A stretch of 21,893 bases of DNA from a virus, in the IMG/VR virus record IMGVR_UViG_3300045934_000208, positions 1-21,893 of that record. One strand, given 5' to 3'. Position 1 is the first letter of the stretch. Every line of letters starts with the position of its first letter. The notes beneath the pieces were generated by a model, which saw only the letters and a program-made list of their open reading frames with translations, searched no databases and had not been told where the DNA came from. The position numbers and the translations under genes are program-made. Shown here one piece after another: positions 2,753 to 21,893 of the stretch.

Positions 2753-3235
2753 GTGTCGCGCTTCAGCGCGAGCGAGCTCGACCAGGAGGCGGCCGACCGG
2801 ATCCTCGAGCGGCTCGTCGAGGGCGTCCCGGGCGGCGACGGGAAGCCCGCTAGCCTCGCTTCGATCCTGCGCGCAGCGCGCGCGGCCGGCGAGGCGATGC
2901 CGAGCTGGCGGACGGTCTTTCGCTGGCTGCACGCGTTCCCCGAGTTCGCGGCCGCCTACGCCCGTGCTCGCGAAGAGCAGGCCGAGGCGATCTTCGACGA
3001 GATCCTCGACGTTGCGGACGACGCTGGGGACGATCCGCAGAGCCGGCGCGTGCGGATCGACGCGCGCAAGTGGGCCCTTGGCCGGATGCTTCCGAAGCGC
3101 TTCGGCGACCGGCTGGCGGTGACCGGTGGCGACGGCGGCCCCCTCGAGATCGAGCATGCCGTCGAGATCGACGCCCTCGACGCTCTCCTCGATCGTGTCC
3201 AGGCTCGCGAAGCTCCCGAAGGCGGCGCGCCGTGA
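2753..3235 (+). CDS. terS: Terminase small subunit
   Basis: The protein has 160 residues and starts at GTG 2753 behind an excellent ribosome binding site. Small subunits recognise the phage DNA and bring it to the large subunit for cutting and packaging. Residues about 33-62 (SILRAARAAG...SWRTVFRWLH) form the helix-turn-helix part. Residues 62-122 follow the Sf6-like terminase small subunit signature: FPEFAAAYARAREEQ, then an acidic helix FDEILDVADDA, then RIDARKWALGRMLPKRFGDR. The length is normal. The acidic tail (about 129-148) is the usual place for contact with the large subunit. The large subunit gene follows and overlaps its 3' end. Confidence 0.85.
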   Translation: MSRFSASELDQEAADRILERLVEGVPGGDGKPASLASILRAARAAGEAMPSWRTVFRWLHAFPEFAAAYARAREEQAEAIFDEILDVADDAGDDPQSRRVRIDARKWALGRMLPKRFGDRLAVTGGDGGPLEIEHAVEIDALDALLDRVQAREAPEGGAP

Positions 3236-4544
3236 GTTCCTCGCGCAGCTCAGCGAGCGCGAGCGCCTCGCGGTACTCGAGGAGCTGTACCGCTGGGAAC
3301 GCTGGGCGCGGTCCGAGCAGCTCGAGCCGCCGGGCGAGTGGTCGGTGTGGCTCAACCTGGCCGGCCGCGGCAACGGTAAGACGCGCACGCTCTGCGAGTG
3401 GGTCCGCTACCGCGTGGAGCGCTGCGGCGCGAGGCGCCTCGTGATCGCGGCGTCTACCTCGGCCGACGTCCGCGACACCGTCGTGGAGGGCGAGAGCGGC
3501 CTCCTGGCGGTCTTCCCGCCGCACCGCCGGCCGCTCTACGAGCCCTCGAAGCGGCGCGTCACCTTCGCGGGTGGCGCGCGGGCGGTGCTCCTCTCGGCCG
3601 ATCGGCCCGACCGCTTCCGCGGTCCCCAGTGCGACACGGCGGCGGCCGACGAGCTGGCGGCGTGGCGGTACTCCGAGGCCTGGGAGAACCTGCTGCTCGG
3701 CCTGCGGCTCGAGACGTCGAAGGGGGTCGGCCCGCGCGCCGGCGTCGCCACGACGCCGCGCCCGACGCGGCAGATTCGTGAGCTGAAGGCGGACCCGGCG
3801 ACGTGCACGACGGTGGGTCGCACCGTGGACAACCGGGGGAACCTGGCCCCCGCGTTCTTCGACCGGATCATCCGGCGCTACCAGGGGACGCGGCTCGGCC
3901 GGCAGGAACTCGATGCGGAGATCCTCGAGGAGATCGAGGGCGCGATCGTGACGTTGGCGATGATCGACGACGCGCGGGTGGCCGAGCTGCCCGAGCTCGG
4001 GCGCGTCGTCGTGGCGGTGGATCCGCCGGGCGGGCACAAGGCGACGAGTGCGGAGGCCGGCATCGTGGCGGCGGGGCGTGGTGCGGGCTCGGACGCCGAG
4101 CAAGGCTACGTGCTCGAGGACCGTTCGCTGCGCGGGACGCCGGACGAGTGGGCGCGCGCGGCGATCCGGCTGCACCGCGAGCTCGACGCCGACGCCATCG
4201 TGGCCGAGGTGAACCACGGCGGCGACATGGTGAAGGACGTGATCCGCTCGCGGGACCGGAGCGTGCGCGTGATCGAGGTGCGCGCGAGCCGCGCGAAACA
4301 CGTGCGCTTCGAGCCCATCGGCGCGCTCTACGAGCAGTTTCGAATCCATCACCTCGGCACCTTCGCTGCGCTGGAAGATCAGGTCTGCGGCTTCACCTCG
4401 ACCGGTTACGAGGGCGCCGGGTCCGAGGACTCCGAGAATCCGGCTTCGCCGGATCGCGCGGACGCGCTGGTCTGGGCGCTGACGGAGCTGCTCGTCTCGC
4501 GCGGCTCGGGCTTCGAGATCTACGCGGGGGAGGCGGCGGCGTGA
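3195..4544 (+). CDS. terL: Terminase large subunit (packaging ATPase/nuclease)
   Basis: With GTG 3195 as start the protein has 449 residues, normal for the family. The frame is open farther up, with alternative starts at GTG 3126 and ATG 3156, and none has a convincing ribosome binding site, so the start is uncertain. The N-terminal ATPase shows Walker A (LAGRGNGKT, residues 55-63) and Walker B with the catalytic acid (AAADELAAW, D152-E153). Motif III is near ATTPRPTRQ (185-193). The C-terminal RNase H-like nuclease shows VVVAVDPPGG (D276), AIVAEVNHGGD (E338) and SPDRADALVWA (D420/D423). The protein cuts concatemeric DNA and drives it into the prohead. The gene overlaps the small subunit gene at its 5' end and the portal gene (GTGA) at its 3' end. 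Confidence 0.92.
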   Translation: MSRLAKLPKAARREFLAQLSERERLAVLEELYRWERWARSEQLEPPGEWSVWLNLAGRGNGKTRTLCEWVRYRVERCGARRLVIAASTSADVRDTVVEGESGLLAVFPPHRRPLYEPSKRRVTFAGGARAVLLSADRPDRFRGPQCDTAAADELAAWRYSEAWENLLLGLRLETSKGVGPRAGVATTPRPTRQIRELKADPATCTTVGRTVDNRGNLAPAFFDRIIRRYQGTRLGRQELDAEILEEIEGAIVTLAMIDDARVAELPELGRVVVAVDPPGGHKATSAEAGIVAAGRGAGSDAEQGYVLEDRSLRGTPDEWARAAIRLHRELDADAIVAEVNHGGDMVKDVIRSRDRSVRVIEVRASRAKHVRFEPIGALYEQFRIHHLGTFAALEDQVCGFTSTGYEGAGSEDSENPASPDRADALVWALTELLVSRGSGFEIYAGEAAA

Positions 4545-6649
4545 GCGCAGCGCACGTGCAGCTCGGGGACCTCTACGTGCCGCGCAGCATGGTTGACGAC
4601 CTGGTGGCGCGGCGCGTGGAGTCGGAGCGCGCCGAGACTCCGATCACGTTCCACGGCCCGCGCGTCTCGCTGCGCGGGCTCGGGCGCCAGCCGAGTACAC
4701 AGAGCCTCCTCGAGGAGACGCGCTCCTGGGCGGCGATCGCAGCGAGCCGCGTCGCCTCGCGCGTGCAGTCGATCGAGCCGCTGCTCTTCGTGCGCCGGCG
4801 CGTGGCGGAGGGAACGCAGGAGGAGGAGCAGCTCGACGAGCACGTGGCGAAGGAGGTGCTCGACCGGCCGAATCCGATCTTCTCGCGGCGGCTTCTTGCC
4901 CGGCTCCAGGCGTTCCACTTCCTCCAGTGCGGGGAGTGGTACTTGCAGAAGCTGCGCGATGGGATCGGCGTCGTGCGCGAGCTCTGGCCGCTCCCGCCGC
5001 AGAATGTCGAGCCGATCTCCGATCCGCAGCGCGTGATTGGCGGCTACAAGGTGACGGACGGCTACGGGCGGCAGACGATGCTGCCGGCCGAGGACGTGAT
5101 CCGCTGCTGGTCTCCGGATCCGCTCACGCTCTTTACGGCGATGGGCGCGCTCGGTCCGCAGGCGGTCGAGTGGGACACGCTGCGCTTTCTCTCGGATCAC
5201 CTCCGCGCGTTCTTCGAGAGCGATGCGACGCCGCGCGTCGTCCTGACGGCCGACAAGGACGTGACGATGCCTTCGCCCGACGATGCGCAGGCGAAGGCGT
5301 TCTATGCGCACTGGCGAAACCGCTTCCACAAGGTCCGCGGCGATCTGCGCGGGCTGCCGGTGCTCTTGCCGAGCGGCGTCTCGCCCGAGGTGCTCGACGC
5401 GCACGGTGGCGATGCGGCGCTGGTCGAGCTGGACCGCCAGCGCAGCAAGCAGATCCTCTCGGCCTACGGCGTGCCGGAGTCGATCGCGGGGCTGACGGAG
5501 CACGTGAACCGCGCGAGCGCGGAGACGAACCTCTACGTCTTCGATCAGAACACGATCGCGCCGCTCCTCGACCTCTTCGCCGAGGCCTACACCGAAGGTC
5601 TGGCGCGCGAGTACGATCCGCAGCTCTTCGTTCGCTATGAGGACTTCGTTGCGCCCGACAAGACCTTCGACCTCCTGCGCGAGCAGCAGGACCTGGTGCA
5701 CAAGGTGCGCAGCGTGCAGCAGGTCTTGCGTGACCGCGGCGCGGATCCCGAGGACGCGCCCTGGGGTGAGCTGCCGGTGGGGACGCTGGCGGACGAGCCC
5801 TACACCGGCGAGGAGCGGGAGGATTCTCCCGAGGACGCGGCAGACCTCGCGATTTCTGGCGGCGTCAAGGTGGCGCCGTCGGCCTCGGTCCGAACCCCTT
5901 CCTACCAGCGGATCGAGGCCACTTCTCCAGACGCTGCCTGGGCGCGCCTCCTAGCTGCGGAGCGGCAGTTCGTCTCTCGCTTCGAGCGGGCGATGGCGAC
6001 GGTCTTCGATGCGCAGCGCAAGGCGGCGCTCGCGCGGCTTCGCGCGGTGACGCGGGCGCGCGTCTCGGCAACCGACGTCTTCGACCCGAACGCCTGGGGC
6101 GCGCTTTTCGAGCGTGTGGTGCAGCCGATCCGCCGGCGCGCGTTCGCTTCCTCGGGCCGTGAGGCGCTGCATGCGGTGGGGAGCGATGTCGGCTTCACGC
6201 TGAAGGACCACGCGGCGGCGCTGCTTGCGCGCCAAGGCGCGCAGCTCGTCTCGAAGGTGAATGCGGTGACGCTCGCGCGGCTGCGAGAGGAGCTGTCCGC
6301 GGGGACGCTCGAAGGCGAGGGCGTCGATCAGCTCGCCAAGCGGATCTCGGGCGTCTTCCAGAATCGAAAGCGCGCGCGCACGGTGGCGCGGACGGAGCTT
6401 TTGAAGGCGCACGAGTCAGGGCAGCTCGAGGGCTTCCGGCAGGGCGGCGTGCCCGGCAAGCAATGGAACACGTCGCGCGACGATGCGGTGCGCGACTCCC
6501 ACGAGATCGACGGCCAGGTGCAGGCGCTCGAAGAGGACTTCGAGTTGGCCTCGGGGAATCGCGCTGCGTACCCGGGCGACGACTCGCTGCCGGCCGACGA
6601 GGTAGTCAACTGCCGGTGCTTCGTGACACCGGTACTCGAGGAGGACTGA
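4541..6649 (+). CDS. Portal protein fused to Mu-F-type head morphogenesis protein
   Basis: The protein has 702 residues, starting at GTG 4541 overlapping the terminase stop (GTGA). The same frame is open far upstream, inside the terminase gene, but that part is antisense-like shadow. Residues about 55-415 match HK97-type portals: DRPNPIFSRRLLARLQAF (108-125), LPAEDVIRCWSPDP (181-194) and AYGVPESIAGL (308-318), followed by a long helix. A hydrophilic linker (about 418-465) leads to a helical region and then the MuF/SPP1 gp7 domain (about 595-698): QWNTSRDDAVRDSHEIDG (641-658) and the closing NCRC (690-693). The portal forms the DNA gate; MuF proteins sit inside the head near it. The usual phage portal has about 400-500 residues and MuF is a separate gene, so this is a fusion. 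No stop or frameshift separates the two. Confidence 0.88.
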   Translation: MSAAHVQLGDLYVPRSMVDDLVARRVESERAETPITFHGPRVSLRGLGRQPSTQSLLEETRSWAAIAASRVASRVQSIEPLLFVRRRVAEGTQEEEQLDEHVAKEVLDRPNPIFSRRLLARLQAFHFLQCGEWYLQKLRDGIGVVRELWPLPPQNVEPISDPQRVIGGYKVTDGYGRQTMLPAEDVIRCWSPDPLTLFTAMGALGPQAVEWDTLRFLSDHLRAFFESDATPRVVLTADKDVTMPSPDDAQAKAFYAHWRNRFHKVRGDLRGLPVLLPSGVSPEVLDAHGGDAALVELDRQRSKQILSAYGVPESIAGLTEHVNRASAETNLYVFDQNTIAPLLDLFAEAYTEGLAREYDPQLFVRYEDFVAPDKTFDLLREQQDLVHKVRSVQQVLRDRGADPEDAPWGELPVGTLADEPYTGEEREDSPEDAADLAISGGVKVAPSASVRTPSYQRIEATSPDAAWARLLAAERQFVSRFERAMATVFDAQRKAALARLRAVTRARVSATDVFDPNAWGALFERVVQPIRRRAFASSGREALHAVGSDVGFTLKDHAAALLARQGAQLVSKVNAVTLARLREELSAGTLEGEGVDQLAKRISGVFQNRKRARTVARTELLKAHESGQLEGFRQGGVPGKQWNTSRDDAVRDSHEIDGQVQALEEDFELASGNRAAYPGDDSLPADEVVNCRCFVTPVLEED

Positions 6650-6653
6650 AGTC

Positions 6654-6806
6654 ATGGGTCATCGACGCCAGCGCTTCGAGGACGAGGAGACGAAGCCGAT
6701 TCCGCAGGAGCCGACGGAGTCCGAGCCGGCGGAGCCCGAGCCGGCGCATCCGGCACGCGGCAAGCGGCGCGGCGCGGCTTCCGAGCCGACGCCCGAGGCC
6801 GGCTGA
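6654..6806 (+). CDS. Small Pro/Glu-rich protein (50 aa)
   Basis: ATG 6654 follows a strong GAGGAGGA ribosome binding site at 6638-6645, and the stop TGA 6804-6806 overlaps the next ATG (TGATG). The product starts basic and acidic (MGHRRQRFEDEETKP), then becomes Glu/Pro/Ala repeats such as EPTESEPAEPEPA, and ends Gly/Arg-rich. It should be disordered. I recognise no family. Its place between portal and protease fits a minor head or assembly factor, but this is position-based only. Confidence 0.6.
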   Translation: MGHRRQRFEDEETKPIPQEPTESEPAEPEPAHPARGKRRGAASEPTPEAG

Positions 6807-7351: not shown

Positions 7352-8422
7352 ATGCGCTTCAACCGGAACGTCGAGATCGAGCGCGCCGAGCTGGGCGAGG
7401 ATGCCAGCTTCCCGGTCACGCTCTTCACCGATGGCGAGGCGAGCGACGGGCACATCTTGCACGTGGCCGGCGCGCGCACCGCGCCGCGCATGCCGCTCTT
7501 CGTGAACCACTGGGCCGACCCGACCATGACCATGGGGAGCCTGACGGATCCCAAGCGCAGCGAGCACGCGATCCGCTACCGCGCGCAGATCGACCTCGGC
7601 GCACCCGAGAGCGCCGTGGCAGCGATCCGGCGCGACGTGGCCTACATGATCGGCCAGGGCCACGTGCGCAGCATGAGCGGCCGGTGGGACGCCGATCCGA
7701 AGGACGTCGTGCCGCGCACGGCGCTTCCGGCCGATCACCCGGCCTACGTCGACCCGGCGAAGGAGCCGGCAGGGCGCAAGCGCTGGGGACTCTACTTCAA
7801 GCGCTGGACCGCGCTCGAGGGCTCGATCGTCGGGCTGGGCGCCGATCCCAAGGCGCTGATCGGCCGGAGCGAGGATGCGAGTCTGCCGGAGCCGGTGCGG
7901 GCCTTCTGGCGCGCCGAGGCGCAGGCGCAGCCGCAGAGCGAGCTCGAGCACCTCTACGCGGAGCTGCGCCTCCGCTACCAGGCCATGCGCGGCGCGGGCG
8001 CGAGCTTCGCGGACGTGCTGAACGCGCTGCAGGGCGTGCTCGGGGCCGAGGAGGCCGGGACGCTCGAGCGCCTAGAGCGCGAGGGGCTGCCGGGCATCTG
8101 GCTTCCGGCCGCGCTCCTCGAGCGCCTCCATGGCGAGCGTGCAGCGTTCACCGATGCCATCGCCGCTCTCGAAGCGGTGCTCATTTCCCGGGAAGACGCC
8201 GATCATGCCGGCGCCGACCCTGCTGCCGAGCCGACGGAAGAGTCCGACCCGGCTCCGCCCGAGCGCGCAGCGCTCGAGGCTCTCTCGCATGCACGCGCTG
8301 GAAGTGTCGCCGCGATCTCCGCGGCGGAGTTCTTCGAGCGCCTCGAATCGAAGATGAAGAGCAGCAGTTCCGTCATCGCGGCCGACGTGGTTCGGCGGGT
8401 GACGGGGAGGGTTTCAGCATGA
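7352..8422 (+). CDS. Prohead serine protease with scaffold-like C-terminus
   Basis: The protein has 356 residues; ATG 7352 follows GGGGGAG (7338-7344). Residues 1-170 resemble the HK97-type prohead protease fold. There is PLFVNHWADPTMTMGSL with candidate catalytic H53, then a strand (AIRYRAQIDLG), a helix (AAIRRDVAYMIGQGHV), and RSMSGRW with S107 or S109 as candidate nucleophile, in place of the usual SVGF. Such enzymes clip scaffold and capsid N-termini after shell assembly. Residues about 190-356 are helical and charged, with Gln, Glu and Ala runs, as in protease genes that also carry the scaffold. ATGA overlap couples it to the capsid gene, as expected for a head module. The third member of the triad is not obvious to me. 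Confidence 0.68.
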   Translation: MRFNRNVEIERAELGEDASFPVTLFTDGEASDGHILHVAGARTAPRMPLFVNHWADPTMTMGSLTDPKRSEHAIRYRAQIDLGAPESAVAAIRRDVAYMIGQGHVRSMSGRWDADPKDVVPRTALPADHPAYVDPAKEPAGRKRWGLYFKRWTALEGSIVGLGADPKALIGRSEDASLPEPVRAFWRAEAQAQPQSELEHLYAELRLRYQAMRGAGASFADVLNALQGVLGAEEAGTLERLEREGLPGIWLPAALLERLHGERAAFTDAIAALEAVLISREDADHAGADPAAEPTEESDPAPPERAALEALSHARAGSVAAISAAEFFERLESKMKSSSSVIAADVVRRVTGRVSA

Positions 8423-9783
8423 AGATCAAGGTTCGACTCCGCGCCAGCGGCGCGGAGGTGGAGATCGAAGAGAGCGCCTTCGACACGGCGCTGCACGAGC
8501 GGATCACTCCGCGCTCGATCGGCGACATGCCGGCCGAGGAGTTCATGACGCAGCTGGCGACGGTCGGCGCGCGCCAGACGGGCGAGGTGGTGGGGCAGAT
8601 CCTCACGCAGCTTGGCGTCGGCCAGGTGAACCGCGGGAGCCTTGCGACCACGCCGGGCACGCAGCCGCGCCAGTCGGCCGATGCCGGCGCCGTCGAGGCG
8701 CAGCGGATCGAGCGGGTGCGACCGTCATGGGAGCGGCAGTACCTGACCCTGCCCGAGTCCGAGCGGAAGGTCCGCACGGTCGAGGGGGATCTCCTCGTGC
8801 TGCGCTGGGCGCAGGCGGTGGTCGACAAGGACTACGCGCGCGCCGAGCGGATCATCCGGGAGAGCGATCCCGTCTACTCGCGCGCGCCGCTCGCCGAGGG
8901 CGCGGCCGCGACGGGCGGGAACCTCGTCCCGACGCCGCTCGCGAGCGTGATCCTCATGAAGCGCGATGCCCACGAGCGGATCGCGCCGCGCAGCATGCGG
9001 TTCACGAGCCCCGCCGACACGCTCGACGTGCCGACCGAGGCGACCGTGGGCGACGTGGCGGCGACGGCCGAGGCGACCGCGCCGAGCGAGACCGACTCGA
9101 CGTTCGGGCTGGTGACGCTCACGAAGAAGAAGGTCATGCGGGCGTGCCGCGCGTCGCGCGAGCTCCTCGCGGACATCTCGCAGGCCTTCTCGCTGGTGAC
9201 GATCCTCTCCGATCAGGTGAGCCGGCGCCTGGCCGTCTTCAGCGACGGGCAGGCGGCGGTCAACGGGAACGGCACTCCGCCCAACTGGACGTCGGCCATC
9301 CAGGGCGCGTCCATCACGGCGGTCACCGGCAGCGGCGGCGCGATCACGCGGAAGAAGATCAAGGACCTGCTGCTCGGGCTGCCGTCCGAGTGGCGCAACG
9401 GTCCGGGCGTCTTCTTCTTCGGCAACGCCGCGGTGACGGGCTTCCTCTCCGACGTGGTCGACACGACGGGCCGGCCGATCTGGCTGAACCAGACCGACCC
9501 GGCTCGCCCGGTGGGTGACGTCGGCAACGCCGTGGGGCTCGTCGAGGGGATCCCGTACCTCGAGGTGGCGCCCTTCTCGACGAACATCCTGTACGTCGGC
9601 GTCCTCGCCGAGGGCTACGGGATCCTCGAGGACGAGGCGCTGCTCGTCGAGGCCTCGACCGAGGCGTCGGACGTCTTCCTGAAGCACCAGGTTCTGTGGA
9701 AGTTCATGCAGCGGCGCGACGGTGCGGTTCTCCGCACCGACTGCTTCCGCAAGACCGACGCGGCGGTCCTGGCCCCGGCCTGA
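8419..9783 (+). CDS. Major capsid protein, HK97 fold
   Basis: The protein has 454 residues; ATG 8419 overlaps the protease stop (ATGA) and follows GGGGAGG at 8404-8410, a strong site for a highly expressed product. The HK97-type shell part starts near residue 165 with ATGGNLVPTPLASVIL. It continues through the E-loop/beta region (SPADTLDVPTEATVGDV) and the spine helix (SRELLADISQAFSLVTILSD), and ends in a strand with DVFLKHQVLWKF. The long N-terminal part (about 1-150, helical and charged in its second half) resembles the delta domain that the protease removes in many HK97-like phages. That cleavage is inferred, and no site is pinned. A strong hairpin follows the stop. Confidence 0.88.
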   Translation: MKIKVRLRASGAEVEIEESAFDTALHERITPRSIGDMPAEEFMTQLATVGARQTGEVVGQILTQLGVGQVNRGSLATTPGTQPRQSADAGAVEAQRIERVRPSWERQYLTLPESERKVRTVEGDLLVLRWAQAVVDKDYARAERIIRESDPVYSRAPLAEGAAATGGNLVPTPLASVILMKRDAHERIAPRSMRFTSPADTLDVPTEATVGDVAATAEATAPSETDSTFGLVTLTKKKVMRACRASRELLADISQAFSLVTILSDQVSRRLAVFSDGQAAVNGNGTPPNWTSAIQGASITAVTGSGGAITRKKIKDLLLGLPSEWRNGPGVFFFGNAAVTGFLSDVVDTTGRPIWLNQTDPARPVGDVGNAVGLVEGIPYLEVAPFSTNILYVGVLAEGYGILEDEALLVEASTEASDVFLKHQVLWKFMQRRDGAVLRTDCFRKTDAAVLAPA

Positions 9784-13256: not shown

Positions 13257-14837
13257 GTGGCGGGAAACAAGAAGTTCACCGTTTCGGCCGAGATCCGCGC
13301 GGAGGACCGGGCGTCTCCGGTAGTTGGTCGGATCACGCGTTCCTTTCAGTCGCTTGGGAGTGAGCTGAAGGAACGGTTTGTGATCACCGCTGGTGACGTC
13401 GTGAACGCGGCGGGCAGCATCGTGAGAGCGGTGGGGTCCATGTTCGCAGCCGCGGCAGAGGCGGAACGCGGGCAGACTCGCCTTACACAAGCGCTGGAGC
13501 GCCAGGGTGCCGCTACGCCGCGCGTGGTGAGTGCGTTGAACGAGCAGGCGCAGGCGATCGCCCGCGTGACCGATCTTCAGGACGATCAGATCACGTCCGT
13601 TCAGACGTTACTTGCGCAGCTCGGGGTTCAGGCGTCGCAGATCCCGGAAGCAACGCAGGCGACGATTGATTTGGCCGCGGCGCTTGGAATCGACCTGAAC
13701 ACGGCCGCGCAGCAGGTCGGCGCCACGGTCAACGGCGTCACCGGACGCCTTGCGCGTGTGGCTCCCGAGCTGGCGAATCTCTCCGACGAAGCGCTGCGAA
13801 GCGGAGAGGGCATCCGGCTTCTTGGGGAGCGCTTCAAGGGGGCTGGCGAGGCGGCATCGGAGGACTTCGGGAAGCAGCTCGCGGGCCTGAAGAATGATCT
13901 TGGCGAGCTCGGCGAGGCGTTCGCAACCGGCGCGACGGGCACGGGTGATTTCGAGGAAGCGGTTCGGAGCGCACGAGAGGAAGTGCAGCAGTTCGGGCCT
14001 ACTGCAGAAATTTTGGGTCAGACGATGGGCAACGTCGTCTCGATTCTTGTTTCTGCTTTGGAGGGGTTGATCTCGGTTTCCAAGAAAGCCGGCGATTTCT
14101 TTGCTTCGGCGCTCCTTCCTGAGGTTGCGAACGCGGTTACGGTGACGGAGCAGTTTCGCGATGCCGCCAACGCATCGGTTGAGGCAATGCACGCTCAGGG
14201 CGAGGCTGCTGCGGAAGCTGCCGCTGCACATGGCGATTTGGCTGCGACTGCAGACGCTGCTGGGAATGCAATCGCTGGTGCTTCTGACAGCACCAACAAC
14301 TTGACGGCCAGCCAGCGCGAGGCGGCTGCATCTTCGACGGCTCTCGATACCGCGCTCAAGGCGGTTGGGATCACCGTCGAGGATCGAGCAGCGAAAGAAG
14401 CGGCGCTGCTGGCCATCCTCGAGCAGGCCGAGCTTGCGAACGTGCGCCGGCAGATCAGCGATGAGCGCTACGTGGCGATCGTCGCGGCGGTGAATGCGGA
14501 GCTGGAGAAGCTGCGGCTTACACAGGAGGGCGTCGTCGAGTCTACCGACGCTGCTACCGACGCTTTCTCCTTGCAGGCTGACAGCCTCTCGCGAGTGGCG
14601 ACGGCTGCGGGATCGGCTGCGGTTGCCATCGGGCAGCTCGAAGAGCGTCAGCGGAGCCTCGATGGTCTGCGGGGCCAGGCGGTCGGAATCTCGCTTGCGG
14701 AGGTCGAGGCGCTGGAGAGGTTCCCTCTCGGGCGCCCGAGTGGCCTCGGCCTTGGCGGTCACTCTTCAGGCCTCGGCTTCGGCGGTCGCCGCGGCGTCAC
14801 CGTCGATCCGAACGGCCGCCGGGTGCGGGCGGCGTAG
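13257..14837 (+). CDS. Tail tape measure protein (short)
   Basis: The protein has 526 residues; GTG 13257 follows AGGGGGTG at 13241-13248. It is largely helical and Ala/Gln/Glu-rich, with heptad-like stretches (ERGQTRLTQALERQGA, DLAAALGIDLNTAAQQVG, ERFKGAGEAASEDFGKQL) and a hydrophobic segment near residues 258-290 (NVVSILVSALEGLISVS). Tape measures set tail length and leave with the DNA. At about 1.5 angstrom per residue this predicts a tail near 80 nm. The C-terminus is a Gly/Arg tail with a repeated SGLG(L/F)GG. No peptidase motif is seen. Its G+C is lower than that of its neighbours. The N-terminal VGRITRSFQSLGSEL region matches many tape measures. Confidence 0.82.
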   Translation: MAGNKKFTVSAEIRAEDRASPVVGRITRSFQSLGSELKERFVITAGDVVNAAGSIVRAVGSMFAAAAEAERGQTRLTQALERQGAATPRVVSALNEQAQAIARVTDLQDDQITSVQTLLAQLGVQASQIPEATQATIDLAAALGIDLNTAAQQVGATVNGVTGRLARVAPELANLSDEALRSGEGIRLLGERFKGAGEAASEDFGKQLAGLKNDLGELGEAFATGATGTGDFEEAVRSAREEVQQFGPTAEILGQTMGNVVSILVSALEGLISVSKKAGDFFASALLPEVANAVTVTEQFRDAANASVEAMHAQGEAAAEAAAAHGDLAATADAAGNAIAGASDSTNNLTASQREAAASSTALDTALKAVGITVEDRAAKEAALLAILEQAELANVRRQISDERYVAIVAAVNAELEKLRLTQEGVVESTDAATDAFSLQADSLSRVATAAGSAAVAIGQLEERQRSLDGLRGQAVGISLAEVEALERFPLGRPSGLGLGGHSSGLGFGGRRGVTVDPNGRRVRAA

Positions 14838-14840
14838 CCG

Positions 14841-15620
14841 ATGGCCTGGCAGCCGCACCGCTGGGCCTACCTGCACGCCGCGGCCGACGCCGGCGCGGCC
14901 GCGCTGACCGTGTCCGTCGCGACGGCGACGGGCTTCGGGAAAGAGAACCTGATCGACTACCGGGCGCAGAGCCTCCTGCGCCTGAACGCCGCGCAAACGG
15001 CCTTCAACGTGATCCTCGACCGCGGCGCCGCGGGCCTCGAGGCGGTCGATCGGCTGGTGATCCCCTCCGGCCACAACCTCGGCGCCGCCACGCTCACCGT
15101 GCATCGGAGCACGACGGGCGCCTTCGGAGGCGAGGAGGTGCAGCTCGGGACCGTGGCTGCGCCGGGCGCCGGCGCCATCGACCTGGCGCTGACCTCGAGC
15201 ACGCACCGCTACCTCCGGCTCAGCGTCAGCGGGCCCTCGGCGGTCTACGAGTTCGGCGAGCTCTTCTTCACCCGCGTGCGGATCCCGACGCGCGGCTGGG
15301 ATCCTGGCTACGACGACCGGCCCGTCCGGAACGCCGAGACGCGCCGCACGGCGCGCAGCTACGTGACCACGCTCTACGGCGCGGCGCAGAGTGAGATCCG
15401 GGCGAAGGCGAGCCGCTACCGGGGCGCGGATCTCACGCTGCTCGACGAGCTGATCTCCTTCCTCGATCTCGGGCTCCCCCTGTGGTACTGGCGCCCCGAC
15501 TCGGCCGCGAAGCCGATCTATGTCCTCGGCGAGCTCGAGGGCCGGGTGCAGGACTCGCCGGCGCCGGCGTTCGCGGGCGAAGCCTTCGGGCCCTCCTTCG
15601 TCTTCCGGGAGACGGTCTGA
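14841..15620 (+). CDS. Distal-tail-like protein with discoidin-like domain
   Basis: The protein has 259 residues; ATG 14841 comes just after the tape measure stop. Residues about 33-147 read as a galactose-binding (F5/8 type C, discoidin-like) fold: KENLIDYRAQSLLRL, FNVILDRGAAGLEAVDRL, VIPSGHNLGAATLTVHRS and YLRLSVSGPSAVYEFGEL, the typical order of its strands. Residues 148-259 contain RTARSYVTTLYGAAQ and GLPLWYWRPDS, resembling C-terminal parts of distal tail proteins. The place directly after the tape measure is where Dit normally sits, forming the ring that links tube and hub. The lectin-like fold may help bind the host surface; binding is not shown. Confidence 0.65.
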   Translation: MAWQPHRWAYLHAAADAGAAALTVSVATATGFGKENLIDYRAQSLLRLNAAQTAFNVILDRGAAGLEAVDRLVIPSGHNLGAATLTVHRSTTGAFGGEEVQLGTVAAPGAGAIDLALTSSTHRYLRLSVSGPSAVYEFGELFFTRVRIPTRGWDPGYDDRPVRNAETRRTARSYVTTLYGAAQSEIRAKASRYRGADLTLLDELISFLDLGLPLWYWRPDSAAKPIYVLGELEGRVQDSPAPAFAGEAFGPSFVFRETV

Positions 15621-16672
15621 TGCTGGCGCTGAGCGCTACGCAGGCCGCGCTCGCTGCGCGCCCCGCGACGATCCCCGTCGTCTTCGCCGTGCTGCGCACC
15701 TGGACGAACAAGGCCGCCGGCACGGTCCAGGCGACCTACTACTGGTCGAGCTGGGAGGGGCACTACTCCTACGACGGCGCCGAGCGCTTCTTCCAGGCGC
15801 AGATCCTGCGCCAGGGGACCTCGAGGATTCTGCGGCAGCTGGGCGTCGTGGGCGGCGCGCGCTTCACCCTCGCGGTGACGAACGATCGCATCGGGAACCG
15901 GAAGACCGGGACGCGCACCTGGTCGGACCTGAAGACGAAGAACCTGCGCGGCGCTTCGATCGAGGTGTCCCGGATGCTCGTCGCGACGCCGGCGACGGCG
16001 CCGAAGCTCGCGGGCCCGGATCATACGTTTGTCTACCGGGGCGACCTGGTCAGCGCGAGCGAGGAGGGGGGCGTGATTTCCCTCGTCTTCGCGGCGCCGG
16101 CGCCGGACCTGCAGCTCCGCCACGCGTTCGGCGACCTAGTCGACCCGAAGGACGTCGGCGCCGTCTACCCCTACCCGATCGGGCGCTTCGAGAAGGTCCC
16201 CCTCCTCAACCTCGAATGTGGGGGCCAGACGACGCTCGCCGAGGCGATCACCGTCGGGCAGACGGGGAACGCGATCCTCTCCGATGCTACGCGCTTCCCG
16301 GCCGCGGGCACCTTCGATGCCTGGGTCGACGGGGAAGAGATCCGCTTCTCCGGGCGGACGGGGAACGTGGCGGCGATCAGCGCCCGGGCTCAGTCCGGGA
16401 CCAAGGCCTCGGCGCACCAGGCCGGCGCCTCCGTCGTCGAGCTGCGCGACCTGGTGCTCGGCGTCGCCGGCGCGCCGATCAAGGCCGTGGACAGCGTTTG
16501 GGTCGCCACGCCGGGCGGCCTGGTGCGCGTCGGGACGAACCTCTTCGAGTTCACGAGCACGGAGGCGGACGGCGCCACGCTCACCCTCCCGGCGGCAAAG
16601 CTGCGCGTCCTTTTCGCGAAGATCCGGCGCTCGACCACGGTCACCTCGCAGCCGGCCTTCGAGGCGACCTGA
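15620..16672 (+). CDS. Tail hub/baseplate protein, N-terminal part (putative)
   Basis: The protein has 350 residues; ATG 15620 overlaps the previous stop (TGATG) and has GGGAG at 15608-15612 as ribosome binding site. Strand-rich segments include VVFAVLRTWTN, FVYRGDLVSASEEGGVISLVF and YPYPIGRFEKVPLLNLE (183-199). The last is similar to the segment shared by tail hub/host-specificity proteins in which a P(I/L)xxGr...VPL pattern follows the first hub domains. Hub proteins sit at the tail tip and open at the host surface. The next gene carries what looks like the rest of the hub. Assignment rests on these patterns and position. Confidence 0.55.
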   Translation: MLALSATQAALAARPATIPVVFAVLRTWTNKAAGTVQATYYWSSWEGHYSYDGAERFFQAQILRQGTSRILRQLGVVGGARFTLAVTNDRIGNRKTGTRTWSDLKTKNLRGASIEVSRMLVATPATAPKLAGPDHTFVYRGDLVSASEEGGVISLVFAAPAPDLQLRHAFGDLVDPKDVGAVYPYPIGRFEKVPLLNLECGGQTTLAEAITVGQTGNAILSDATRFPAAGTFDAWVDGEEIRFSGRTGNVAAISARAQSGTKASAHQAGASVVELRDLVLGVAGAPIKAVDSVWVATPGGLVRVGTNLFEFTSTEADGATLTLPAAKLRVLFAKIRRSTTVTSQPAFEAT

Positions 16673-19272
16673 TGGCGTTCCACAAGCCGGACACGCAGGC
16701 GACCTTCACCGACCACGGCGCAGAAGACGGAACCTGGTCGAACACCGGGACGTCGACGCCGGACTGGTCGGGCCGCGAATACACCGGCGTCATCGCGTAT
16801 CTCTTCTCATGGCTCCGCAGCTCCTGGACGGGCGCCGGCAGCTACCCCTCGGGCGAGGTGAAGCGCTGGCGCGCCTTCGTCGATCTCGACGTTTCGCTGA
16901 ACGAAACGGGCGGGGCCGCCGGCGTGATCATGTACGTCCACGGCGTTCCCGGGATCACGAACGGCTACCAGGTGCACAACAAGGTGGACGGGACCGCGAC
17001 GGCGGTCCGGGTGTACGGAAGCTGGAAGACCCCTCCGTCGGGAACCGAGCTCGCCGACCTCTCGGGCGTCGCGAAGGTCGAGTTCGAGACGGCCACCGAC
17101 GACGGGAAGGGCGGAGCGTTCGCGCTCGAGCTGAACGACTGGGGCCTCGAGTACGAGCTCGTTACCGACGTCGGCGGCGGCGGCGGCGGCGGTCCCGGGG
17201 CGACGGATATCGACCAGACGGTCGAGGTCGAGGTCGAGGGCCCGGGCTCGGGCGAGGGGCTCTCCTTCTTCGGCTCGGGCCGCGGCCTCGTCGTGCCGCA
17301 GGTGCCGCTTGCGACCGAGCTGAAGGCAACGACGTCGGCCAGCGCGGCGAAGCTCGGCGACACGAGCGGGAAGCAATGGCGCGCCGCCAGCTTCACCCCG
17401 GCGGTCGACGACGACTACGGCCAGGTGAGCGCGTGGCTTCGGCGCGTGGGGAACCCGCGTGGCCTCATCACGGTGTACCTGCACACGAACAGCGGGGGCC
17501 TCCCGGTCGCCGGCGCGCCGGATCTCTTCGTCGGGCAGATCGTCGCGTCGGATCTCGAAACCACCTTCGAGGAGCGGGTGGCCTCGACGGCCAAGGTGCT
17601 CTCGTACCGGACGCGCATCCTCGAGGCCGGCCCGGCGCACTTCTACCGATTCAAGGAATTCGGCGGCTCGCCGGCGAACACGCAGCCCGAGCTACCGGGC
17701 GGCCGCGCGCTCGTCGGCACCGGGGTCACCGAGGTGACGGGGATCAACGTCTCGGATGCCTCGGGCGGCGCGCTCTCCTTCGACGGGTCTAACGACGAGC
17801 TCGCCTCCGTCCTCTCGCCGCTCACGACCCGGAATACGCTGGTTGCGGTCGAGTGCTGGGCCAAGCTTCTGTCGACGGACCAGGGCGTGATCTGGCACAA
17901 CGGGAGCCACGCCGGGAGCTCGGGCTTCGGGCTCAACGTCGGCGCCGCGAACGCTCTTCAGCTGCGGCGCAACGGGACGAACAGCGCGACGGGCTACACG
18001 ATGCCCGTCGGCTCCTGGGTTCACCTCGTCGTGACCCACGACGGGGTCAGCTGGGCGGTGTGGGCCGACGGCGTTCGCGTCTACCAGAACGCGACGGCGG
18101 TCACCTCCTACTCGGCCGGCGTGACGAGCTTCGGCTCCGACGGCTCGGCGGCGCAGTTCCTGAACGTGGCTGTCTCCGAGGTGGCGGTCTACGAGCATCA
18201 GCTCAGCGATGACGAGATCCGCGCTCACTACGCGATCGGGCGCTTTGGGCAGATGGACTCCGGCTTCCTGCAGCAATCCCTCGCGCTCGACAACGCACTG
18301 ACCTACTGGGTTCTCCTCTTCTCCGACCTGGTCGACGCCTCGCACCACGTCGAGATCGAGTACGGGACGAACGGCGGGCACGGCTCCGGGGAGGAGCTCG
18401 CCGAGTCAGCTCACGACTCCTTCCTGTTCGAGCCGGCCTCCTGGGGCGGCGCGGTGACGGGCGGCGCCCACCTTCGGATCGCGGAACAGGACGACCGCGG
18501 CTACCGGCAGGCCGCGGGCGAGATGATGGAAACGATCCCCGACGTGATGCGCTTCGTCGCCGGCGAGCTGGCCGGGATCCCTTACACCTCCCTCGACAAC
18601 GCGGCGCTCGACGCGGCGACGATCGCGGGCTTGGTGTTCGCCGGGAACCTGGTGGGGCTCGGCGAGAGCTTCGACGAGTGGTGGCAGGGCCTCGCCTTCG
18701 CGCAGCGCGCCGAGGCCTGCGTCTCCGAAGGGGCGGGCGCGACCCTGTACCGGCTCTTCGCCGCCAACCTGACGTTCGACTTCGGCGCCGCGGTGGCCGC
18801 GGTAGAGGACCTCCGCGAGCTCACGGAGACGCTGCGCGGCCGAGACGAGCTCGCGACCCGGCTCCGGGCCTTCTTCGACTTCGACGCGAGCCTCGGCTCC
18901 GACGAGCGGGCCTTCCGCCAGGTGGTGCGGGCGGACCCCGAGGAGAGCGACGTCCCGCTATTCCCGGAGTCGACCCTCGACGCCCTCGAGACGGCCGGCG
19001 GAGCGCGCACGCACCCGGCCTTTTTCCTCCTCCTCGTGCGCGACAAGGCGACGGCGATCGACTGGCTCGGGTGGCAGGCGAAGCTGCGCGCCGAAATGCG
19101 CAGCTCCTACGAAGGGCCCTGGCCGATGCCCGTCGCCTACGCCCTCGAGCCGGGCGACGTCGTGACAGTCTCCCCGCCCTCCGGCGGGAGCCCGGTCAAG
19201 TGCCAGGTGTTTTCCACGGAGCTCGACCTATGGAGCCCGGCGGTCGACGCCGTGGCCGCGGAGGTGACGTGA
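16672..19272 (+). CDS. Tail tip/hub protein with inserted LamG domain
   Basis: The protein has 866 residues; ATG 16672 overlaps the previous stop (TGATG). It holds an N-terminal beta domain (about 1-165); a seven-Gly hinge (168-174); the first half of a choice-of-anchor-R-like beta-sandwich (about 238-312, with VSAWLRRVGNPRGLITVYLH); a LamG/concanavalin-type domain (about 313-525, from SYRTRILEAGPAHFYRFKE to VAVYEHQLSDDEIRAHYA); the second half of the sandwich (about 526-575, with NALTYWVLLFSD); then a helical and beta C-terminal part (about 580-866) resembling tail hubs (IPDVMRFVAGELAGIPY, YALEPGDVVTVSPP). LamG folds bind sugars or proteins, so it probably touches the host envelope. Only three cysteines. 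Domains are called by pattern; LamG is the surest. Confidence 0.72.
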   Translation: MAFHKPDTQATFTDHGAEDGTWSNTGTSTPDWSGREYTGVIAYLFSWLRSSWTGAGSYPSGEVKRWRAFVDLDVSLNETGGAAGVIMYVHGVPGITNGYQVHNKVDGTATAVRVYGSWKTPPSGTELADLSGVAKVEFETATDDGKGGAFALELNDWGLEYELVTDVGGGGGGGPGATDIDQTVEVEVEGPGSGEGLSFFGSGRGLVVPQVPLATELKATTSASAAKLGDTSGKQWRAASFTPAVDDDYGQVSAWLRRVGNPRGLITVYLHTNSGGLPVAGAPDLFVGQIVASDLETTFEERVASTAKVLSYRTRILEAGPAHFYRFKEFGGSPANTQPELPGGRALVGTGVTEVTGINVSDASGGALSFDGSNDELASVLSPLTTRNTLVAVECWAKLLSTDQGVIWHNGSHAGSSGFGLNVGAANALQLRRNGTNSATGYTMPVGSWVHLVVTHDGVSWAVWADGVRVYQNATAVTSYSAGVTSFGSDGSAAQFLNVAVSEVAVYEHQLSDDEIRAHYAIGRFGQMDSGFLQQSLALDNALTYWVLLFSDLVDASHHVEIEYGTNGGHGSGEELAESAHDSFLFEPASWGGAVTGGAHLRIAEQDDRGYRQAAGEMMETIPDVMRFVAGELAGIPYTSLDNAALDAATIAGLVFAGNLVGLGESFDEWWQGLAFAQRAEACVSEGAGATLYRLFAANLTFDFGAAVAAVEDLRELTETLRGRDELATRLRAFFDFDASLGSDERAFRQVVRADPEESDVPLFPESTLDALETAGGARTHPAFFLLLVRDKATAIDWLGWQAKLRAEMRSSYEGPWPMPVAYALEPGDVVTVSPPSGGSPVKCQVFSTELDLWSPAVDAVAAEVT
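19260..19265 (+). promoter_or_regulatory. Ribosome binding site GGAGGT fixing the start at 19272
   Basis: GGAGGT at 19260-19265 is a consensus site and lies six bases before ATG 19272. It supports this start over an in-frame GTG at 19365 that would remove the signal peptide and has no such site. It therefore matters for the claim that the fibre-like product is exported. Confidence 0.75.
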
Positions 19273-21818
19273 TGTGGCGCGGTGCTCTCGCTTCTCTCTT
19301 CGCGGTCGCCGCGGCGCTGCTTCCGGTGGGCTCGCTTGCGAAGACGGAGTACGACGCTGACAAGGTGAAGATCGAGGCGCTCGACGACGACCTCGAATCT
19401 TCCTGGGCGAAGGGAGCGTTCTCCGAGATCCCGACGAGCACCTTCGCAAACCTCGGGACCGCGCCCTGCCTCGCGACCCCGGGCCGCACGTGCCGCATTT
19501 CCGACTCCGAGAGCTGCACGGCGCTCGACGCCCTCGAGGTCGGCGACCTGCCGGCAATCTGCATCTATGTCCCGGTGGACGGCGTCCCTCAGTGGCGCGC
19601 GTTCGGCGGCGGCACGCTCGGCGGCGGGGGGCTCTCGGACGGCGACAAGGGAGATATCACCGTCTCCGACTCGGGCGCGACCTTCAACGTCGACGCGAGC
19701 ACGATCGGCAGCGCCGAGCTCGTCAACACGACGACGGGCGCCACGTGCGGCAGCGCGACCGCGAGCTGCGTCCCGACCTACGACAATGACGGGCGGATCA
19801 CGGGGAAGACCGAGCCGACGATCACGCCGAGCGCCGCGAACGTGACCCTCCCGACGGCGGTCCAGGGCGTCAGCAACGCGTCGGATGCGCTGATCCAGCT
19901 GGGGAAGGATCAACGCGTCGCGATCGTCTCGACGGGGGTCACCCTCGCGAAGGGCGATCCGGTGGCGGTCAACTATGAAAGCGGCGCCGAGGGCGGCGCG
20001 GCCGGCGAGCCGCACGTGTGGAAGGCGGAAGCGCAGTATCCGCAAGCCGGGTTCATTTTCAATCAGGCGCTGCTCGGCGTATCCCTCGCGGCCTACACCG
20101 CGGGGCAGACGGCGCAAATCGTCACGCGCGGCTACCTCGACTCGCTCAATACCAGCGCCTACGAAGCCGGGGACTTTCTCTGCGTCGGTCAGACGGGGGG
20201 CCTCGCGGCGTGCACGTCGACGGCTCTCTCCCATCGAATGTGTGTGGCGCAGGTGGTTCGGAAGCACGCGAGCACCGGGAAAATTTGGGTCATGCCGCCG
20301 GGCTGCGAGCGCCTCGCGACCAACCGGGTTCGATACGAGACGAATTGCCAGGCGCCGAGCGGGACCATGCGCCGCGGGGATCTCTGCGTGGTGCAGAACA
20401 CCGGAGCACCGCATATCGACAGGACGTCGCTCTGGCTCTGCACCGCGGCGAATTGCAGCGACTCGACGACGATCCTCCGGGTCCGGCCGAACCTCGGAAC
20501 GCAGCCGGGCCGGGAGATCCTCGTCGTCGGCGACTCCTACGCGATGGGGAACCTGTTCGACGAGGCGGCCTTCGCTCCGAGCGCGTTCCCGAACGGGCTG
20601 CGCGGGCGCCTGGCCGGCCGGCTCACCGCGCAAAGTTCCATGCGCGTCGGCTACCTGTTCGCGACGACGACGGGCGAAATGTTCGGCTCGGGATCCGATA
20701 CCGACGTCCTTGAATACGTCGACACGCGTCCCGGCGTGACCGACGTCGTGCTCCTGATCGGGACAAATGACTGTGTGGTCGCGTGCGGACACGGCTCGGG
20801 CGGAAGCTTCAATCCTGCCGGCGCGCCCGTTGGCGCCTGCACCTTCGCGAACACCCTGGCAAATCTTCAATACGTGATGGCGGGCCTCGAGGCGCGCTCG
20901 ATCCGGGCATGGCACGTGACCAGCCCGGGCCTGATGGGGGTCTATGCCGGCTTCTCCGGGACCTACGCGAGCTGTGTCGAGGCCATCGTCGAAACGGGCG
21001 GCACGACGACCGACGGCCTAACCGCGGAGCTCAACGCGACTACCTGCGTCGGGACCGATTTCTGCGAATCGACGAACGCGGCCTATCAGGAGGCCTGCGC
21101 GGGGAGCGGAACCACGTACCCCGACCCGGGCGGCGTCGCGTGCGGCACCTCGAACCTGATCGACTATGGCGACGGCGCAGGGAAGGTAAATCGCGACAAC
21201 TCGAAAGTTTACATGGCGGAAGACCAGGTGCTGTCTTCCCGCGGCGGCTGGATTCCCTACCTGCACCTGTCGGGCATCGGTCATCAGGCGCTCTTCCGAA
21301 CCATCGTAAACTGGATGAAGACGACAACGGGCGTCTCAGGAAACAACGTTCTCGACGACGCGGAGTTCTACGGGCCGCTCTTCGTGCAGGATTTCGCGAA
21401 TCGTCCGGCGCGGCCGAGCTTCACCTACGCGAACCTGACCGCGACCTCCGTCGAGATCACGCCGAGCATTGGAACCTACGTCAACGGCGCCGACGGAACC
21501 CTCGGCTACTGCACGGGCGACGGTCAAGATTGCTACGCAGTTTGCTCGGCGCAATGTGTTGACGACGACAAGACGAGCACCGACCCGGCTTGCCCGACGG
21601 GGGCAGAGAGCGCCGTCGCGCGCAATCTCGGAACCCCGGACGGGGGGACACATCGCGCCGGCGAGATCGCTAACAAGCGTGGGACGGCCGTGATCCCATT
21701 CGGCTACACCGGGAAGCTGATCGGCCTTCATACCGCGACGGAATACGCGCTTCAATGCTACGCGGTGAGCCTAAACGGCGTTTCGCATCCCTTCGTCCAG
21801 CTGGTGACGACGCCGTGA
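19272..21818 (+). CDS. Tail-fibre-like SGNH hydrolase with signal peptide
   Basis: The protein has 848 residues; ATG 19272 overlaps the hub stop (TGATG) and is set by GGAGGT. Residues 1-23 form a signal peptide: basic MWR, a hydrophobic core (ALASLFAVAAALLPVG) and SLA before K24 as a signal-peptidase-I site. Residues 121-141 hold LSDGDKGDITVSDSGATF, a motif common in phage tail fibres. Residues 414-690 form an SGNH/GDSL hydrolase: ILVVGDSYAMG (nucleophile S422), LLIGTND (497-500) and LHLSGIGH (H665). The aspartate usually three residues before that histidine is P662. Residues about 710-848 look FN3-like. I count 28 cysteines, many more than in other genes here. It may deacetylate host-surface sugars as a fibre, or act as a secreted esterase. 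Confidence 0.72.
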   Translation: MWRGALASLFAVAAALLPVGSLAKTEYDADKVKIEALDDDLESSWAKGAFSEIPTSTFANLGTAPCLATPGRTCRISDSESCTALDALEVGDLPAICIYVPVDGVPQWRAFGGGTLGGGGLSDGDKGDITVSDSGATFNVDASTIGSAELVNTTTGATCGSATASCVPTYDNDGRITGKTEPTITPSAANVTLPTAVQGVSNASDALIQLGKDQRVAIVSTGVTLAKGDPVAVNYESGAEGGAAGEPHVWKAEAQYPQAGFIFNQALLGVSLAAYTAGQTAQIVTRGYLDSLNTSAYEAGDFLCVGQTGGLAACTSTALSHRMCVAQVVRKHASTGKIWVMPPGCERLATNRVRYETNCQAPSGTMRRGDLCVVQNTGAPHIDRTSLWLCTAANCSDSTTILRVRPNLGTQPGREILVVGDSYAMGNLFDEAAFAPSAFPNGLRGRLAGRLTAQSSMRVGYLFATTTGEMFGSGSDTDVLEYVDTRPGVTDVVLLIGTNDCVVACGHGSGGSFNPAGAPVGACTFANTLANLQYVMAGLEARSIRAWHVTSPGLMGVYAGFSGTYASCVEAIVETGGTTTDGLTAELNATTCVGTDFCESTNAAYQEACAGSGTTYPDPGGVACGTSNLIDYGDGAGKVNRDNSKVYMAEDQVLSSRGGWIPYLHLSGIGHQALFRTIVNWMKTTTGVSGNNVLDDAEFYGPLFVQDFANRPARPSFTYANLTATSVEITPSIGTYVNGADGTLGYCTGDGQDCYAVCSAQCVDDDKTSTDPACPTGAESAVARNLGTPDGGTHRAGEIANKRGTAVIPFGYTGKLIGLHTATEYALQCYAVSLNGVSHPFVQLVTTP

Positions 21819-21893
21819 GGCGCGCACCCTTCGCGCTCTTGGTCCTCGCCGCGGCGTTCCTGACGTCGGCCTCCCCGCCGCCGGTGCCGGGGC
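21815..21893 (+). CDS. Start of a second signal-peptide gene (partial)
   Basis: GTG 21815 overlaps the preceding stop (GTGA), and the frame stays open to the window edge (26 full codons). The visible residues read MRRAPFALLVLAAAFLTSA, then Ser and Pro/Val-rich sequence. This has a basic start, a hydrophobic core and TSA before a Ser as a possible signal-peptidase-I site. There is no cysteine in the visible part, so no lipobox. Function is unknown: it could be a secreted partner of the preceding protein, a lysis (spanin-type) protein or another fibre. Only translation context and the signal-like start support it. Confidence 0.5.
   Translation, partial: MRRAPFALLVLAAAFLTSASPPPVPG

Follow-up and report, generated by a model that had tools for sequence, protein, structure and literature searches.

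In the textbook account, tail fibres fold and attach in the cytoplasm. Phage G7C gp63.1 is reportedly an example of an SGNH/GDSL esterase carried on a phage tailspike. The adhesin pIII of filamentous phages is a virion adhesin with a signal peptide and disulfides that is assembled outside the cytoplasm; it shares the signal peptide with the protein described here and offers a parallel for a possible mode of action, but it belongs to an unrelated virus with another assembly route and is not a relative. In tailed phages, the endolysin Lys44 of phage fOg44 is Sec-exported via a signal peptide (PMC6116005), and Lom of phage lambda is also exported via a signal peptide (PMC12309495). Both are late or accessory proteins with a signal peptide, like the protein studied here, but they are lytic enzymes or membrane proteins and do not belong to the fibre-like proteins of tail operons. 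Signal peptides were lacking in a survey of phage DGR target proteins (PMC6199706), and no description of signal-bearing tail fibres, or of a cassette of such genes, was found in the literature searched.

The window analyzed here, a 21,893-base IMG/VR contig of an uncultured tailed phage, contains a gene for a fibre-like protein of 848 amino acids at the end of a run of tail genes, which extends up to position 19272. The genes and signals relevant to its context are:

3126-4544: terminase
4544-6649: portal fused to a MuF-like head morphogenesis domain in one reading frame (PF04860 and PF04233)
8419-9783: major head protein
13257-14837: tape measure
16672..19272, plus strand: upstream tail gene of 866 amino acids, probably tail hub or tip, with a LamG lectin domain (PF13385, E=7e-15)
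19260..19265, plus strand: ribosome binding site GGAGGT, a 6-base match to AAGGAGGT
19272..21818, plus strand: gene of the fibre-like protein with an SGNH-like domain, 848 amino acids and 28 cysteines (translation; cysteine test, p=2.5e-12)
19272..19340, plus strand: predicted Sec signal peptide, residues 1-23, cut after S-L-A (rule with error rates, see below)
21815..21893, plus strand: next gene, whose GTG start overlaps the stop of the fibre gene and which is cut by the contig end, with the signal peptide MRRAPFALLVLAAAFLTSASPPPVPG (translation and rule)

The original prediction placed the start of the 848-residue protein at 19272, which is corroborated by the ribosome binding site and by the TGATG overlap of the ATG with the stop codon of the tail gene before it. 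In-frame GTG codons further on (residues 19, 32 and 102) were rejected as alternative starts, as none of them has a ribosome binding site. Residues 1-23 read MWRGALASLFAVAAALLPVGSLA and are followed by K24. Signal peptides were scored with a home-made rule that asks for a positive n-region, a 10-residue uncharged core and small residues at -3/-1. With one arginine, a mean core hydrophobicity of 2.48 and S-L-A ahead of the cut, this N-terminus passes at the true start, so that the three-part signal peptide proposed earlier was recovered. The rule is passed by 1.9% of the 723 open start codons in the window, by 1.5% of random composition-matched N-termini and by 4.7% of shuffles of the protein's own N-terminal residues. 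A stricter core value of 2.0 was also applied, which is exceeded by this protein only among the 16 predicted genes of the window; the gene predicted at 6806 is a marginal pass (1.69), and the 866-residue tail protein has no signal peptide by the rule. The 26 residues of the next gene that precede the contig end are signal-like, with a core value of 2.94.

A second record (L002/G001) has a portal identical to that of the window, is identical over window positions 15,001-15,726, where it ends, and extends the phage by about 11.6 kb upstream. This upstream part carries a serine integrase, an SNF2-type helicase, an SLT-type lysozyme, which unlike Lys44 has no signal peptide, and a superinfection immunity gene, and the phage is therefore probably temperate. 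The immunity gene is located as follows:

L194:10413-10838, minus strand: superinfection immunity gene in the upstream part of the window's phage (PF14373, E=5.9e-15)

It begins with a signal-like N-terminus itself. The LamG (concanavalin-like lectin) domain of the 866-residue tail protein is a possible second receptor-binding part. For the two tail genes upstream of the fibre gene, no homologues were found in phages or IMG/VR.

A temperate phage may carry lysogenic conversion genes (morons), and the 848-residue protein could be a secreted esterase that is expressed from the prophage and alters the host surface; prophage-encoded changes of O-antigen acylation are known. However, the start of its gene overlaps the stop of a late tail gene and it should therefore be silent in a lysogen, and the same phage has a dedicated, signal-bearing superinfection immunity gene. 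A moron is thus the least probable of the readings weighed here. The dedicated PF14373 gene likewise weakens superinfection exclusion, a role that had been suggested for the protein; PF14373 itself gave no match to it in the profile search.

Along the 848-residue protein, the following regions were distinguished:

19443..19604, plus strand: cysteine-rich N-terminal stretch, residues 58-111 (FANLGT...C...C...C...C...W; translation)
19641..19685, plus strand: fibre motif GDKGDITVSDSGATF, residues 124-138 (phmmer matches to many phage ORFs with the motif)
20523..21290, plus strand: SGNH/GDSL hydrolase-like domain, residues 418-673 (PF13472, E=1.9e-4, below the curated cut-off)
20529..20537, plus strand: GDS motif, residues 420-422, with candidate catalytic Ser422 (sequence)
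20760..20771, plus strand: GTND motif (SGNH block III), residues 497-500 (sequence)
21264..21266, plus strand: candidate catalytic His665, with Pro662 in the usual place of the Asp (sequence)
21372..21815, plus strand: C-terminal region, residues 701-848, with 6 cysteines and no family match in the profile search

The fibre motif predicted for this protein is present, with GDKGDITV beginning at residue 124. Fibre-type repeats and the gene position after tail hub or tip genes both mark the protein as tail-fibre-like, and it has motif and position in common with the GDKGDITV phage tail fibres. It differs from them in two respects, as about 93-94% of 119 such fibres have no signal peptide and their median cysteine content is 0.3%. 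In one of them (L027) the motif lies inside a Pfam DUF5907 (PF19264) repeat, whereas PF19264 gave no score on the window protein. No attachment domain was identified in the 848 residues. Searches of phages, plasmids and both IMG/VR and GTDB contigs gave no homologue of the protein, and a sample of about 600 genomes from two phyla gave none either, the genome searches having been run without a positive control.

Cysteine accounts for 28 of the 848 residues (3.3%), compared to 23 of 5,446 (0.42%) in the 15 other predicted genes of the window (Fisher test, p=2.5e-12). These cysteines are spread over all regions, with 4, 2, 8, 8 and 6 in five consecutive stretches. Among the matches listed, none of 181 other GDKGDITV ORFs of at least 200 residues reaches 3.3%. 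The next-highest value (3.0%) belongs to an ORF of L159 with the motif at 3035-3060 (minus strand), which has a signal peptide by the rule. L159, which carries this phage fibre motif, is a contig binned as a Diapherotrites archaeon.

The SGNH hydrolase that had been predicted in the protein can be upheld in part. On the isolated region the whole PF13472 profile (1-178) is matched with E=1.9e-4, and the GDS and GTND blocks occur in the order found in SGNH/GDSL hydrolases. The score of 22.4 bits is below the curated cut-off of 32.9, for which reason the domain is named SGNH-like here, and a classical triad is not demonstrated, since the Asp normally found three residues before the His (DxxH) is replaced by Pro662. 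Further differences from the family are a large cysteine-bearing insertion and the signal peptide. The SGNH assignment is likely, and an esterase activity is presumed. An AlphaFold model of the region computed without an alignment was unusable (pLDDT 31).

For comparison, phage contigs were gathered by fibre motifs and blind to signal peptides, which gives a motif-based, non-exhaustive sample. Among the matches listed, a signal peptide was found by the rule in 7 of 119 GDKGDITV ORFs with a defined 5′ end (L018, L020, L027, L053, L064, L118 and L128) and, at the stricter core value of 2.0, in none of 118 fibres with PIVQGGVT, another common fibre motif (p=0.014 between the two classes). The premise that fibres normally lack export signals was thus borne out. 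These counts are modest, and related contigs were counted separately (L064, L118 and L018 are alike). In bacterial genomes, a Sphingomonadaceae sequence (L133) is a further clear signal-bearing GDKGDITV case, and one from Thermoanaerobaculia (L175) has a signal-like start by eye, unscored by the rule. Weak rule positives (L145, L168, L173, L183, L190, L225 and L236) were judged false by eye. Across all phage loci retrieved, the rule picked out 2.7% of 2,207 predicted genes.

A second signal-bearing gene directly follows the GDKGDITV fibre gene in 5 of 11 cases with a signal by the rule, but in only 1 of 113 signal-less ones (p=1.2e-5); of the 7 signal-bearing fibres judged clear, 5 directly precede such a gene. 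The same arrangement of a signal-bearing fibre after tail genes, followed by a signal-bearing gene, is present in the window through the gene at 21815. In one contig it comprises three genes:

L053:8336-13964, plus strand: three successive signal-bearing genes for a GDKGDITV fibre, a beta-helix protein (PF13229, 1.4e-12) and a GH10-like protein of 997 residues (PF00331, 3e-4, below cut-off)

Genes for a terminase, portal, tape measure or tail terminator are present on the contigs L053, L064, L118 and L128, which are therefore phages and not host islands. In L128, the second signal-bearing protein has a domain in common (42% identity over 32%) with an ORF that lacks a signal and adjoins the capsid gene of phage MW202795.

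These data bear on the possibility that the N-terminus is not used for export and forms a chance signal-like helix or an uncleaved tail or membrane anchor of an ordinary cytoplasmic fibre. Such a chance match is conceivable, as the rule lets through 1.5-4.7% of random or shuffled N-termini and, among the matches listed, 93% of the fibres with the GDKGDITV motif have no signal, but the cysteine excess, the signal of the next gene and the recurrence in pairs would not be expected by chance, which makes this reading improbable.

A complete counterpart was reached by similarity search with one of the signal-bearing fibres. The phage genome MW202444.1 (Bacteriophage sp. ctLpZ231) is circular and complete and includes genes for an integrase, a terminase, a portal and tail proteins. 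Its signal-bearing fibre gene at 36356 codes for 1,253 residues beginning with MRKILLVLTLLFATIPALA and is located between the tail hub (32671-35481) and a lysis peptidase, where it is the only separate fibre candidate. Downstream come, in this order, a gene whose signal follows an internal Met, a nuclease-like gene (by annotation) with a hydrophobic N-terminus, a signal-bearing gene and the peptidase. The fibre and its signal-bearing neighbours were deposited as hypothetical proteins (CDS UOF76952 and UOF76953). Like the window, this temperate phage encodes, after the tail hub, a fibre that bears a signal and a repeat of the GDKGE(I)TV type, and directly after the fibre another signal-bearing protein; in MW202444 both precede the lysis genes. 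Its fibre differs in that an SGNH domain was not seen, the cysteine content is 0.3% and the C-terminus bears a YCSDCTIA tag, and it has no overall sequence similarity to the window protein.

The best-supported explanation is a late cassette of Sec-exported adhesion or depolymerase proteins, which some environmental phages encode between their tail and lysis genes and which would replace or supplement the usual cytoplasmic tail-fibre genes. The 848-residue protein would be translated in step with the preceding tail gene, whose stop overlaps its start, and presumably late. The host Sec system would then carry it across the inner membrane, residues 1-23 are predicted to be removed, and its 28 cysteines suggest that disulfides form outside the cytoplasm. 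Most likely, the exported protein would join the tails of virions as these leave the cell at lysis, and during adsorption the SGNH-like domain would deacylate a surface glycan. Export by Sec is probable, with good support from the signal peptide, the cysteine excess and the arrangement of the cassette. The chain as a whole, with late joining of the virion included, is given a probability of roughly 0.42. Of the original prediction, the premise about normal fibres stands, export is probable and superinfection exclusion has lost ground; the second signal gene at 21815, the cysteine excess and the recurrence of the cassette, in place of a one-off case, go beyond it.

Nearly as likely, the protein is exported but remains free, as a secreted esterase that is made of fibre parts, modifies surfaces or matrix and never joins the virion. 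It might strip or mask receptors or loosen polysaccharide, which would free the progeny and keep them from adhering to debris. The signal and the paired genes fit this reading equally well, and enzyme-like domains recur in the cassettes (SGNH-like in the window, GH10-like in L053, a nuclease-like annotation in MW202444). Furthermore, the preceding 866-residue tail protein has its own LamG domain, which could be the receptor binder and argues against late joining. Yet a free enzyme would not need the long fibre part, and MW202444 would be left with no other separate fibre gene for adsorption. Late joining is slightly favoured over a free surface enzyme because of this gap in MW202444 and because several signal-bearing proteins have the form of long repeat fibres, of 1,253-2,000 residues. 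Against late joining, no chaperone or docking site for fibre assembly outside the cytoplasm is known.

The recurrence of secreted fibre-like genes in unrelated environmental phages suggests, as far as can be read from their sequences, that some phages export adhesion or surface-cutting proteins rather than assemble them inside the cell. It is a bolder and doubtful proposal that several unrelated lineages of environmental tailed phages possess a Sec-routed receptor-binding or depolymerase cassette whose disulfide-bonded fibres are completed beyond the cytoplasm and fitted to tails only at lysis. If some phages export their fibres, these phages would differ in fibre assembly, in the moment at which virions become infective and in the use of disulfides, and virion assembly would depend on Sec, signal peptidase and Dsb proteins as host factors. 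Receptor-binding proteins would be overlooked where signal-bearing genes of phages are annotated as morons or left as hypothetical proteins, and the clearest complete example is deposited as the latter. Even if the proteins act free, it would be of interest, and easy to test, that surface-active fibre enzymes recur as a secreted cassette where tail operons end.

The C-terminal end of the MW202444 fibre is FANLGAPSNGKFIYCSDCTIASPCASGGTGALAKRLNGAWVCN. A scan of IMG/VR for YC[ST]DCTIA gave at least 19 stretches, nearly all of which have a 46-residue tag with four invariant cysteines at the C-terminal end (consensus FANLGTPANG...YCSDCTIANPCAG.GTGA.AKRLNGVWVCN). The tag was located on fibre-like proteins of environmental phages in L317 and in L320-L338, for example:

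L317:7464-7601, plus strand: 46-residue tag
L338:3783-3920, minus strand: 46-residue tag
L323:5908-6045, plus strand: 46-residue tag

Of the tagged ORFs with a defined 5′ end, 10 of 15 have a signal peptide by the rule and 12 of 15 by eye; the former compares to the 7 of 119 GDKGDITV ORFs among the matches listed (p=1.2e-7). The tag, which ends in VWVCN, is not present in the window protein, as the tag HMM scored it no better than shuffles and its C-terminus differs; the window protein and the tagged fibres therefore share an arrangement and not a family. Residues 58-111 were considered as kin of the tag and rejected, as the HMM gave no support. No paper with the tag string was found in the literature searched. 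Modelled with 17 sequences, the tag is predicted to form a short helix and three strands (pLDDT 67).

Two or three signal-bearing genes in a run also occur in L323, L336, L337 and L338. In L337 (7066-8837, plus strand), two adjacent signal-bearing paralogues have nearly identical mature N-termini (QTFTAQIQQFWNLLRTGS), which is a sign of a duplication inside such a cassette.
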